NCBI GenBank assembly: GCA_003170475.1
Contig: PMZI01000071.1
Coordinates: forward strand, 1-47,253
Reading direction: 5' to 3'
Source of the DNA: Ignavibacteriota bacterium
GTDB lineage: Bacteria; Bacteroidota; Ignavibacteria; UBA10030
DNA length: 47,253 bases
The notes under the pieces are model-generated. The model made no database searches, was not told the origin of the DNA, and was given only the letters and a program-made list of their open reading frames with translations. How positions within the stretch are numbered: the first letter of the stretch is position 1; every line of letters begins with the position of its first letter. Position numbers and translations under genes: made by a program. Shown in pieces: positions 14,489-20,412 of the stretch.

Positions 14489-14983
14489 ATGGAAAAAACC
14501 GAGTATCCGGTCACAACTGCGATTCGGCTCTTGCGTGACAAGAAGGTTGAGTTTAGACCGCATTTGTATGCGTACGAGGAAAACGGTGGAACAGGTCATT
14601 CGGCGAGTGCCCTCGGGGTGTCGGAGCACGAAGTGGTGAAAACGATTGTGATGGCAACGGACGAAGGGATGCCTCTTCTTGTCCTTATGCACGGTGATCG
14701 GGAAATATCGACAAAGCAACTGGCCAGGGTTCTCAACGTAAAACGCGTTGAGCCGTGCGATGAATCAACGGCCACCCGGCATACAGGCTACATCTTCGGA
14801 GGCACAAGCCCTTTTGGTACTCGCCATCCACTGCCAGTCTACGTGGAGCGAAGCATTTTTGATCTGCCCCGTATGTTTATCAATGGTGGAAAGAGGGGGT
14901 TTCTGGTTGAAATCAATCCCGCCGACCTCAAAAGGGTCCTACCAGTGGTCGAAGTCGACGTGGCAACATCGTTCACTTCATGA
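14489..14983 (+). CDS. ybaK: YbaK/EbsC-type aminoacyl-tRNA deacylase
   Basis: 164 residues with the YbaK/ProX fold: TAIRLLRDKKVEFRPHLY, SASALGVSEHEVVKTIVM (with the conserved lysine of VVKT), the central VLMHGDREIS and the C-terminal GGTSPFGTRHPLPVYVE block. E. coli YbaK hydrolyses Cys-tRNA(Pro), correcting prolyl-tRNA synthetase errors. The length fits the family (~155-165). The gene starts 12 bases after the ATL stop and is followed by the MgtC-like gene 12 bases later, so one transcript is likely. Substrate specificity within the family cannot be fixed by eye. Confidence 0.9.
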   Translation: MEKTEYPVTTAIRLLRDKKVEFRPHLYAYEENGGTGHSASALGVSEHEVVKTIVMATDEGMPLLVLMHGDREISTKQLARVLNVKRVEPCDESTATRHTGYIFGGTSPFGTRHPLPVYVERSIFDLPRMFINGGKRGFLVEINPADLKRVLPVVEVDVATSFTS

Positions 14984-17233: not shown

Positions 17234-17266
17234 GAAAAAGCCTCTCAGGAACTCAGATGCTTTTTC
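17234..17266. terminator. Possible bidirectional terminator between convergent genes
   Basis: GAAAAAGC (17234-17241) pairs with GCTTTTTC (17259-17266). The stem is AT-rich and provides a T-tract on both strands. It lies exactly between the end of the TIM-barrel gene (+) and the end of the small minus-strand gene, where such a terminator would be expected. Confidence 0.45.
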
Positions 17267-17290
17267 ATACTTGGTGAAGAGACTACGAAA

Positions 17291-17464
17291 TCAATGGAAG
17301 GAATGCCCACCTCGAACATGGCCGGCGGTTACACGCTGCACGGCTTTCATCTCCCTGTAACCACGCTTCTTGGCTTTGCCTTGGGTCTCAGCATAGCTCA
17401 GCTTTCTGAGTAATGCCTTCGGCTGTTCGGTGTCCAGCTTCAGCGGTACGTGAGTTCGCTTCAT
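17291..17464 (-). CDS. 57-residue basic protein of unknown function (minus strand)
   Basis: 57 codons from ATG at 17464-17462 to TGA at 17293-17291. The product begins MKRTHVPLKLDTEQPKALL and continues with KAKKRGYREMKAV and a His/Gly-rich tail ending GGHSFH; it is strongly basic with no hydrophobic segment. Expression signals are complete on this strand: TTGACA-17-TACCAT promoter, a GGAGGAGGA ribosome-binding site (17471-17479) six bases before the ATG, and an AT-rich hairpin after the stop. I recognise no family; its charge suggests RNA, DNA or ribosome binding (inference). It is shorter than the 60-residue limit often used in gene calling, so it could be missed. Confidence 0.7.
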   Translation of the reverse strand: MKRTHVPLKLDTEQPKALLRKLSYAETQGKAKKRGYREMKAVQRVTAGHVRGGHSFH

Positions 17465-17524
17465 ACAGAGTCCTCCTCCACAGTGATGGTGGGTTTCAAA
17501 GAACGAACGATTTGAACCTGACGA

Positions 17525-17553
17525 ATGGTACGCCGTGCCGAAATCATTGTCAA
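17525..17553 (-). promoter_or_regulatory. Sigma70-type promoter of the small minus-strand gene
   Basis: On the minus strand, TTGACA (17553-17548) and TACCAT (17530-17525) are separated by 17 bases. Transcription would start near 17518, giving a leader of about 53 bases to the ATG at 17464. It diverges from the tRNA-Thr promoter, whose -35 begins 24 bases away. Confidence 0.6.
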
Positions 17554-17576
17554 GAGCGGAGAAGTGAAATTTAATG

Positions 17577-17605
17577 TTGCCACAGTTGTTGATTTTTGCT
17601 ATATT
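17577..17605 (+). promoter_or_regulatory. Promoter of tRNA-Thr
   Basis: TTGCCA (17577-17582) and TATATT (17600-17605) lie 17 bases apart. Predicted start is near 17612, ten bases before the mature tRNA. Confidence 0.65.
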
Positions 17606-17621
17606 TTAAGGTCATTGTTAC

Positions 17622-17693
17622 GCTGAAGTAGCTCAGTGGTAGAGCAGCGGTTTCGTAAACCGCAGGTCGTGGGTTCAACTCCCACCTTCAGCT
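17622..17693 (+). tRNA. tRNA-Thr (anticodon CGT)
   Basis: 72 bases fold into a full cloverleaf: acceptor GCTGAAG/CTTCAGC with discriminator T, D-arm GCTC/GAGC, anticodon arm GCGGT-TTCGTAA-ACCGC with anticodon CGT (reads ACG), and T-arm GTGGG-TTCAACT-CCCAC. CCA is not encoded. Its own promoter lies just upstream. Bases 17656-17694, from the anticodon loop to one base past the discriminator, are duplicated 110 bases downstream in a copy split by a palindrome. Confidence 0.95.
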
Positions 17694-17694
17694 C
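17656..17694 (+). repeat. 39-bp direct repeat, left copy (3' half of tRNA-Thr)
   Basis: This segment runs from the anticodon loop to just past the tRNA 3' end. It recurs without a mismatch as 17766-17786 plus 17835-17852. Duplicated tRNA 3' ends are typical traces of site-specific integration at tRNA genes, where the segment acts as the att core. Confidence 0.8.
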
Positions 17695-17765
17695 TGGTAT
17701 GCAGCAGCAGTTTCGAATGCCGTTTTCAGAGTGACGTTTTGTTCATGCTGGAGAAATTGTCGGGA

Positions 17766-17852
17766 TAAACCGCAGGTCGTGGGTTCCCCGCCCGAACGAC
17801 CGGCGCGGGTCTCACAATCGTTCGGTCGGGCGGGAACTCCCACCTTCAGCTC
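17766..17852 (+). repeat. 39-bp direct repeat, right copy, interrupted by a 48-bp palindrome
   Basis: Bases 17766-17786 and 17835-17852 together reproduce tRNA-Thr bases 17656-17694 exactly. The break lies inside the T-loop sequence. The 5' half of a tRNA is absent before it, so this is a fragment and not a second tRNA gene. Only 71 bases separate the two copies, so any element that once lay between them is gone. Confidence 0.8.
17787..17834. repeat. 48-bp GC-rich palindromic element inside the tRNA 3' fragment
   Basis: CCCGC (17787-17791) plus CCGAACGA (17792-17799) pair with TCGTTCGG (17818-17825) plus GCGGG (17830-17834), leaving a 4-base bulge (17826-17829) and an 18-base loop. The element is far richer in GC than its surroundings and interrupts an otherwise perfect tRNA duplication, so it was inserted after the duplication. 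Size and shape resemble REP-like or other small palindromic repeats. I see no other copy in this window. Confidence 0.7.
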
Positions 17853-17926
17853 AAAAAATCGTCGGACGACACAACCTCCAGCAATGGCGCGAGTCGTCCT
17901 GGTCGGTGAATAAGAGAGTGCCTTAC

Positions 17927-17949
17927 AATCCGCTTCCGGCGGATTTTTT
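17927..17949 (+). terminator. Intrinsic terminator after the tRNA-Thr region
   Basis: AATCCGC (17927-17933) and GCGGATT (17939-17945) form a 7-bp stem with loop TTCCG, followed by TTTT. It lies 20 bases before the ypdA start and probably ends the tRNA transcript. Confidence 0.7.
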
Positions 17950-17968
17950 GTTATCTCACCACAAGCCT

Positions 17969-18928
17969 ATGAATCCAGTCGATATCATCATCATCGGAGC
18001 AGGCCCTGCTGGTCTCGCTTGCGCTCTTGAAGCAAAGAAGCACGGGCTTGATTCGCTGACCATCGACCAGGGCTCAGTCGCCGATGCAATCCGGAGATTT
18101 CCAATCAACATGACATTCTTCTCGACTCCGGAGCTGCTGGCAATCGGCGGCGTACCGTTCCTGAGCTCCGGCTTCCGGCCAACGAGAGTGGAATGCGTGC
18201 GGTACTATCAAATGGTGGCGAAGCATTTTAATCTGCCGATGAAGCAGCAGACTCTCGTAATGGGGCTGCGAAAAGTCACGGATGGATTCGAAGTCAGTAC
18301 GAAGGATGGCACATACCTGGGACGGAATGTGGTCATGGCAACGGGCTATTTCGACACTCCGAATCGGTTTGACGTGCCCGGCTCCGATCTTCCGAAGGTG
18401 CACCGCTATTATTCCGAGCCATACGCCTATGAGGGCAGAAATGTCGTTGTCGTCGGAGGCAAGAATTCTGCAGTCGAAACCGCGCTGGATCTTTTCCGTG
18501 CAGGTGCCAAAGTGACGCTGATTCACCGTGGCAAGAAACTGAGTGAAGGGGTGAAGTACTGGATTCTCCCGGATATCGAGAATAGAATCAAAGCGGGCGA
18601 CGTGCGCGGATTGTTCGAGACAACGGTCAAGAGCATCAAACCCGGCTCGGTAATTGTCGAAGGCCTCCACAACGAGGAACTTCCCAATGATGCCCTCTTC
18701 GTCATGATCGGCTACCGGCCGGAGTTGAATCTCCTGAAGCAGCTTGGCGTGGCGATCGATGATTCCTCGTTGGCCCCTGTTCACGACTCATCAAGCATGC
18801 AGACCAATATCGCTGGGATCTACGTAGCCGGTTCTCTTGCTGCCGGGAAATTCAACAACCGGATTTTTATTGAGAATGGAAGAATGCACGGGGCCATCAT
18901 CGTGGAGTCTGTCCTTCGTTCTCGTTGA
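17969..18928 (+). CDS. ypdA: YpdA family putative bacillithiol disulfide reductase
   Basis: 319 residues. The start begins MNPVDIIIIGAGPAGLACALEA with the FAD-binding GxGxxG; a second dinucleotide motif GGKNSAVETALDLF near residue 165 binds NADPH. The central RRFPINMTFFSTPELLAIGG and the C-terminal NIAGIYVAGSLAAGKFNNRIFIENGR blocks distinguish YpdA from thioredoxin reductase, and no CxxC pair is present. YpdA reduces oxidised bacillithiol, a low-molecular-weight thiol also reported in Chlorobi as the N-methyl form. A GTG at 17906 would extend the frame through the terminator hairpin and is rejected; ATG 17969 matches the family start, though it has no evident Shine-Dalgarno. Confidence 0.88.
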   Translation: MNPVDIIIIGAGPAGLACALEAKKHGLDSLTIDQGSVADAIRRFPINMTFFSTPELLAIGGVPFLSSGFRPTRVECVRYYQMVAKHFNLPMKQQTLVMGLRKVTDGFEVSTKDGTYLGRNVVMATGYFDTPNRFDVPGSDLPKVHRYYSEPYAYEGRNVVVVGGKNSAVETALDLFRAGAKVTLIHRGKKLSEGVKYWILPDIENRIKAGDVRGLFETTVKSIKPGSVIVEGLHNEELPNDALFVMIGYRPELNLLKQLGVAIDDSSLAPVHDSSSMQTNIAGIYVAGSLAAGKFNNRIFIENGRMHGAIIVESVLRSR

Positions 18929-18953
18929 TTTTCGGGGCAAGTTTAGTTACTTT
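18925..18953 (+). promoter_or_regulatory. Possible atpDC promoter
   Basis: TTGATT (18925-18930) lies 17 bases before TACTTT (18948-18953). The -35 is fair, the -10 weak. It sits at the end of ypdA, 50 bases before atpD. Confidence 0.35.
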
Positions 18954-18987
18954 TAAACCAGTTCATTCCAAAAAGCACTTACCCTGA

Positions 18988-20412
<1,425 letters not shown>

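Follow-up and report, generated by a model that had tools for sequence, protein, structure and literature searches.

A partial tRNA-Thr copy split by a hairpin in an Ignavibacteriota genome, a possible remnant of a GIY-YIG nuclease cassette seated at tRNA genes

The tRNA-Thr(CGT) gene on a contig of an Ignavibacteriota bacterium (the source genome; the whole 47,253-nucleotide stretch analysed is called the window) is followed by a displaced partial copy of itself, which may be either an ORF-less remnant or a non-autonomous version of a nuclease cassette that sits at tRNA genes and spreads in a homing-like way, a reading given a probability of about 0.47. In its full form, such a cassette would pair a small GIY-YIG gene with a displaced, incomplete tRNA copy whose loops often hold hairpins, and would lie against an intact tRNA gene that remains whole through duplication of the tRNA end.

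Table 1. Features of the tRNA-Thr(CGT) locus in the window
Feature	Position	Strand	Basis
Intact tRNA-Thr(CGT) gene	17622..17694	+	ARAGORN; Rfam RF00005, 75.6 bits
158-bp insertion between direct repeats of 18 bp (tRNA nt 56–73)	17677..17834, equivalently 17695–17852	+	Alignment to empty site
Decayed 5′ portion of the copy, matching roughly tRNA nt 16–34 (D-loop to anticodon)	17695..17715	+	Shuffle-tested local alignment
Anticodon-loop insert of the copy, 50 nt, with CGGGA at its right end	17716..17765	+	Spliced alignment
Copy of tRNA nt 35–55	17766..17786	+	Perfect, 21 nt
48-bp imperfect palindrome between C56 and A57, in the T-loop of the copy	17787..17834	+	Sequence comparison
Copy of tRNA nt 56–73	17835..17852	+	Perfect, 18 nt

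The 3′ part of the tRNA gene (17656–17694, 39 nt) recurs downstream in two perfect parts of 21 and 18 nt with 48 bp between them (Table 1), which bears out the initial annotation in describing a 39-bp direct repeat whose second copy is split by a palindrome exactly in the T-loop, at what we take to be the bond between C56 and A57 in canonical tRNA numbering. The palindrome has 16-nt arms that are 88% complementary, with 16 nt between the arms, and is the only one of the type CCCGCC..GGCGGG in the window. The same annotation placed 71 bases between the copies, and this holds for the distance from the tRNA end to 17766, but the start of the spacer itself resembles tRNA nt 16–38 (local score 30, a value reached by 4 of 2000 simple shuffles, the best scoring 33), with tRNA-Thr(CGT) as its best match among the 43 tRNAs of the source genome. 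The copy thus appears to extend further 5′, to near the D-loop, with a second insert of 50 nt in the anticodon loop; the decayed 5′ piece is weaker in the spliced alignment, which starts there at nt 22. This second insert hardly resembles a hairpin (best stem 4 bp), and its border, CGGGA followed by TAA, is also read in L234 and L241. The intact tRNA-Thr and its copy are identical except for the inserts. No integrase was found in the 10 ORFs scanned with Pfam between 11.6 and 22.8 kb (eight match families and two are without any family), in agreement with what had been noted from the sequence initially, and the locus itself holds no nuclease ORF. The 71-bp spacer has no other match in the source genome at E ≤ 0.001 and is absent from the empty site of the congeneric genome G003, so that it is regarded as foreign. 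A protein with an aminoacyl-tRNA editing domain (PF04073) is encoded at 14489–14983, ∼2.6 kb upstream of the tRNA-Thr gene.

Comparison of the locus among relatives, as had been suggested at the outset, places the insertion on an otherwise empty site in two genomes of the same genus. In G003 (L229), window positions 17235–17694 and 17835–19000 align to 925–1385 and 1368–2532, and because these adjoining alignments overlap by 18 bp, the window holds 158 bp extra; in G005 (L230), the site was also read from the sequence as empty. A chance origin was rejected in view of the empty sites together with the perfect 39-bp repeat. The tRNA-Thr(CGT) gene adjoins a YpdA-like oxidoreductase gene in 13 of the 21 loci examined, and the same tRNA carries three units of 84 bp, whose T-loop hairpin differs from that of the window, in G015 (L234) and other hairpin-bearing copies in G017 and G019, all read by eye. 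Taken with the empty sites, these varied hairpin-bearing copies make recurrent, independent acquisition at tRNA-Thr(CGT) likely, as judged by sequence comparison, and no copy without a hairpin was seen at the Thr locus within the genus of the window. In L241 (G041), an older split tRNA-Thr appears, by reading, to enclose a complete tRNA-Thr between TCCCGATG and CATCGGGA. G003 also has the empty site at Ser(cga), where the copy looks like a tandem duplication taking in downstream DNA, and, with less clean borders, at His.

Partial copies of this kind are common beside tRNA genes of the genus. In the source genome, a partial copy on the same strand lies within 700 bp of 14 of the 43 tRNAs, compared with 10 of 258 controls against the flanks of other tRNAs and 0 of 43 in antisense, and similar proportions were obtained in the congeneric genomes G002 (13/43) and G003 (13/40). 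Of the isoacceptors with copies, the source genome has five in common with G002 and seven with G003, which points to turnover. With a spliced aligner that permits one long insert and a copy threshold of score ≥28, copies were detected in 41 of 252 real flanks and in 2 of 252 control flanks across the three genomes; 17 of the 41 copies lie upstream and 24 downstream of the tRNA. An internal insert is present in 17 of the 41 and none is shown in the remaining 24, so that the proposal that most copies carry a hairpin fails, with other ends only mildly stem-enriched. Among the copies without an internal insert, 18 of the 28 broken ends fall in or at the D-, anticodon- and T-loops (two at C56), and the stems beside the 26 scorable ends average 5.19 bp vs. 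4.38 bp (reached in 3 of 1000 permutations; 4/26 ends individually). More complex arrangements also occur; for example, L009 (1925–2510 on contig C16) holds the 5′ part of tRNA-Arg(CCT) in three tandem units of ∼196 bp and in a fourth, decayed one, each unit lying upstream of the tRNA and carrying at the D-loop edge a hairpin with the arms of the window palindrome and other loops. Similarly, a tRNA-Arg copy in G008 (L066/L380) has inserts in the D-, anticodon- and T-loops at once, beside two intact tRNA-Arg genes.

The inserts favour particular positions in the tRNA. In the three-genome set, 9 of 20 inserts are in the T-loop, 3 in the D-loop or at its edge, 2 in the anticodon loop and 6 elsewhere, and 8 of the 9 T-loop inserts lie exactly 18 nt from the tRNA end, i.e., between C56 and R57. 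A second set, from GIY-YIG loci, comprises 30 inserts (34 listed minus four double counts in L379 and L380), with 24 in loops or at loop edges and 12 at the C56–R57 bond. Combined, and with one locus (L376) common to both sets, 49 inserts were counted, 19 of them at C56–R57, 37 in the D-, anticodon- and T-loops or at their edges and 12 not in loops, where these loops make up 21 of the 73 nt in tRNA-Thr. Insert sequences differ between loci and are hairpin-prone as a set, the stems averaging 6.25 bp vs. 3.92 bp in length-matched segments (0/1000 permutations), with 20 of 48 inserts individually exceeding 95% of their own controls; several consist, by eye, of two tandem mini-hairpins. Scans for GGTTC abutting CCCGCC presuppose the insert site and were left out of these position counts; they returned 97 stretches, which resolve into 80 loci with 87 matches, of which 17 pass a tRNA-neighbour test, 7 fall below it with a tRNA within 400 bp and 63 are without a tRNA within 1.5 kb. 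The 17 tRNA-neighbour matches come from Ignavibacteria (4), Bacteroidetes (4), Bacteroidales (2), Flavobacteriales (1), Chitinophagaceae (1) and Nomurabacteria (1), and the remaining four are in three records labelled only “bacterium”.

A gene for a small GIY-YIG nuclease (PF01541; 13 matches in the source genome) is associated with the tRNA copies. Across the source genome, G002 and G003, a GIY-YIG ORF lies within 700 bp of 8 of the 40 tRNAs with a copy vs. 0 of the 86 without (Fisher p = 6e-5), always on the tRNA strand, and the other 32 copy loci are without such an ORF. In three of six ORFs (source Arg(ACG), source Gln and G002 Asp), the stop codon falls within the displaced tRNA piece or its hairpin or directly adjoins one of them, and the G002 Asp protein tail is read from both of these. 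The Arg(ACG) nuclease as a query has matches in 30 of 33 relatives and in 150 of 296 genomes of the phylum, the source genome included. Its best-match loci (n = 53), which were chosen for their similarity to a tRNA-linked query, read in 900-nt flanks without a control of their own and do not form a census, contain a tRNA in 44 cases and a copy at spliced score ≥28 in 41; a raw copy match was obtained in 43, at least one of which (L387) is mere likeness between intact tRNAs. Tandem arrays of the whole arrangement exist, for example in G324 (a single contig), where three 306-bp units behind tRNA-Ser(TGA) (L424) each consist of a GIY-YIG ORF, tRNA nt 49–70, an 18-nt insert and nt 71–88. The same genome (G324:C1, 120132–122156) also has five GIY-YIG matches with a 450-bp period and equal or nearly equal scores. 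One nuclease group is under purifying selection, with dN/dS of 0.19–0.37 among the orthologues of the source genome, G004 and G005. The nuclease of the source Arg(TCG) cassette weakly matches UPF0213 (1ywl, E 9.7e-5) and SLX1 (6seh, E 0.0023), and a group I intron endonuclease model gives sub-cutoff matches in two of four nucleases; these likenesses would fit a structure-aware nuclease without proving one.

If the window locus derives from such a cassette, the nuclease would cut tRNA-gene DNA at hairpin loops, above all at the C56–R57 bond, and would probably do so on single-stranded or extruded DNA, a state that is assumed because intact tRNAs keep the site (GGTTC followed by RA), which an ordinary homing nuclease acting on double strands would cleave in its own host. 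Repair with a cassette-bearing copy as the template would then insert the cassette and duplicate the tRNA end, and hairpins captured at the cut loops may disable the displaced copy and block both re-cutting and easy deletion. The nuclease gene would afterwards often be lost, which would lead to forms like that in the window. The G003 tRNA-Gln locus, where the first bases of the source cassette are kept (likeness for ∼23 nt past the tRNA) and the ORF is absent, suggests a step of decay toward such ORF-less forms. A resistant tRNA variant in carriers was considered and set aside, the intact tRNA and the copy being the same at Thr apart from inserts. Counting against the cassette reading are the lack of an ORF at the window locus, the ORF-less state of most copies, the site kept in intact tRNAs, the many copies without an insert, the 12 of 49 inserts outside loops, the share of just 20 in 48 inserts that stand out individually as hairpin-prone, the poorly hairpin-like anticodon-loop insert of the window and the Ser(cga) copy with its downstream DNA.

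Hairpins like that of the window also occur away from tRNA genes. A genome-wide count, which the first examination of the locus had put forward as a check, gave 119 CCCGCC..GGCGGG palindromes in the source genome vs. eight for the reversed pattern; the palindrome is therefore recurrent, and the same type recurs across genera. On contig C58 (L225, 455–11555), there are nine sites vs. 0.01 expected, mostly ∼1.0–1.3 kb apart, which, like those on contig C29, we take to be attC-like on the basis of the integron attC motif. At least one of the C58 sites carries, and at least one lacks, a 47-nt hairpin with the arms of the window palindrome and a different loop at the same point (between ccactg and cggtttgcc), and two more attC-like sites with a 47-nt hairpin were found on C29 (L224). 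Paralogous sites with and without the hairpin indicate that it is gained or lost as a unit. Other attC-like sites hold chains of mini-hairpins (tcccgaaggga...). A proposal that all such palindromes sit in hairpin loops was rejected, as most of 45 other places inspected by eye do not, a number that includes some nested doubles and one attC-like site (L261).

The 3′ ends of tRNA genes are classic att sites, and the locus was initially explained as an emptied or decayed att site used by a small palindromic element, which would make it the relic of a tyrosine-recombinase att site entered later by an unrelated palindromic repeat. The 18 bp of tRNA 3′ end repeated directly around the insertion agree with this, and the later entry of a palindrome is compatible with the genome-wide occurrence of such palindromes, the 24 of 41 copies without an internal insert and the gain or loss of hairpins at attC-like sites. 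The integrase-made att site itself could not be upheld, however, since the scan of the ORFs flanking the window locus returned no integrase, copies occur upstream of the tRNA as well (17 of 41) and the gene that marks the copies encodes a GIY-YIG nuclease (8/40 vs. 0/86); moreover, one bond holds 19 of 49 inserts, which argues that insertion is not haphazard. The initial explanation is thus borne out in part, and an att relic is rather unlikely. Movement of hairpins into the loops of folded DNA by a RAYT/IS200-type single-strand transposase, with the GIY-YIG genes as passengers, could account for the same-arm hairpins in the tRNA copy and in both empty and filled attC-like sites, and Y1_Tnp matches occur in 36 of 41 genomes, with two matches, on contigs C42 and C20, in the source genome. 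REP transposases are described as acting on single-strand hairpins (PMC8266576). One of the two source Y1 genes, a Y1/RAYT-like gene at L304 1041–1478 on contig C42, has, however, REP-like palindromes of its own on its flanks, e.g., GTTTGCCCCGCCCTTAAGGGCGGGGCAAAC, which differ from the tRNA hairpin, and a RAYT as the mover of the window hairpin was down-weighted for this reason. Most of the 45 other palindrome places lying, by eye, outside hairpins also speaks against a RAYT, which would in addition leave the tRNA duplication and the nuclease link unexplained, and such an origin is considered doubtful.

Replication template switching at tRNA cruciforms could produce partial duplications and palindromes with nothing mobile involved, and it would suit the downstream DNA taken into the Ser(cga) duplication, the differences in insert sequence between loci and the existence of tandem arrays. 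It accords poorly with the same palindrome type across genera, with the nuclease association and with the foreign spacer, which has neither a counterpart in G003 nor a second match in the source genome at the E-value given above, and is held to be improbable. A functional structured RNA downstream of the tRNA is a very remote prospect; the RNA and DNA folds are indeed hairpins, but their z-scores are just −1.38 and −1.94, respectively, Rfam gives no match at gathering score besides the tRNA, and the empty sites in same-genus genomes disfavour it. A tRNA intron was rejected as a candidate because an intact tRNA lies alongside and the insert is absent in congeners.

A wider interpretation, offered tentatively and with odds clearly below even, is that the cassettes are phylum-wide selfish elements in tRNA genes that may need neither an integrase nor a transposase. 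They may combine a GIY-YIG nuclease specific for structure or strand with a duplication of the tRNA end, through which the host tRNA survives, and with a hairpin that acts as a lock in one loop (T, D or anticodon) of the displaced copy. Since hairpins with the same arms also enter integron attC-like sites, the hairpins would in this interpretation be independently mobile. Within the phylum, small stand-alone GIY-YIG genes are widespread, as seen from the 150 of 296 genomes matching one query, and their tie to tRNA genes and to one T-loop bond gives a concrete candidate substrate and cut site. The arrangement suggests a way of parasitising essential genes without destroying them and may offer a natural system for how hairpins enter hairpin loops.

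These small tRNA-seated elements, often with a nuclease gene, are apparently undescribed as a family; no description of the tRNA cassettes was found in the literature searched by title and abstract, with partial coverage. They resemble several known systems in part. Islands integrated at tRNA genes by tyrosine recombinases likewise leave a direct repeat of the tRNA 3′ end and an intact tRNA, whereas the loci described here have no integrase nearby, consist of units ranging from tens of bp to a few hundred (L234, 84 bp; L424, 306 bp), carry hairpins in the displaced copies and include upstream 5′ copies. REP/RAYT repeats (PMC8266576) are similar in their dispersed GC-rich hairpins with imperfect arms and in the presence of Y1 genes in the genome, and are set apart by the other REP at the one source Y1 gene examined and by the precise insertion in the loops of tRNA copies. 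The weak matches of the source Arg(TCG) nuclease connect it to UPF0213 and SLX1 GIY-YIG proteins, unlike which the cassette nucleases are linked to tRNA copies and are known here from sequence. The Ssn site-specific single-strand GIY-YIG nucleases are also small GIY-YIG proteins tied to a repeated DNA site. Phage T4 carries free-standing GIY-YIG homing endonuclease genes of the Seg type, for example SegB in its tRNA region. Like these, the cassettes bring a small stand-alone GIY-YIG gene to tRNA genes, are present or absent between relatives and have no integrase seen beside them; in contrast to the Seg genes, they are chromosomal, go with partial tRNA copies whose inserts fall at precise bonds within loops, form tandem units and include a copy without an ORF in the window, and their homing is putative.
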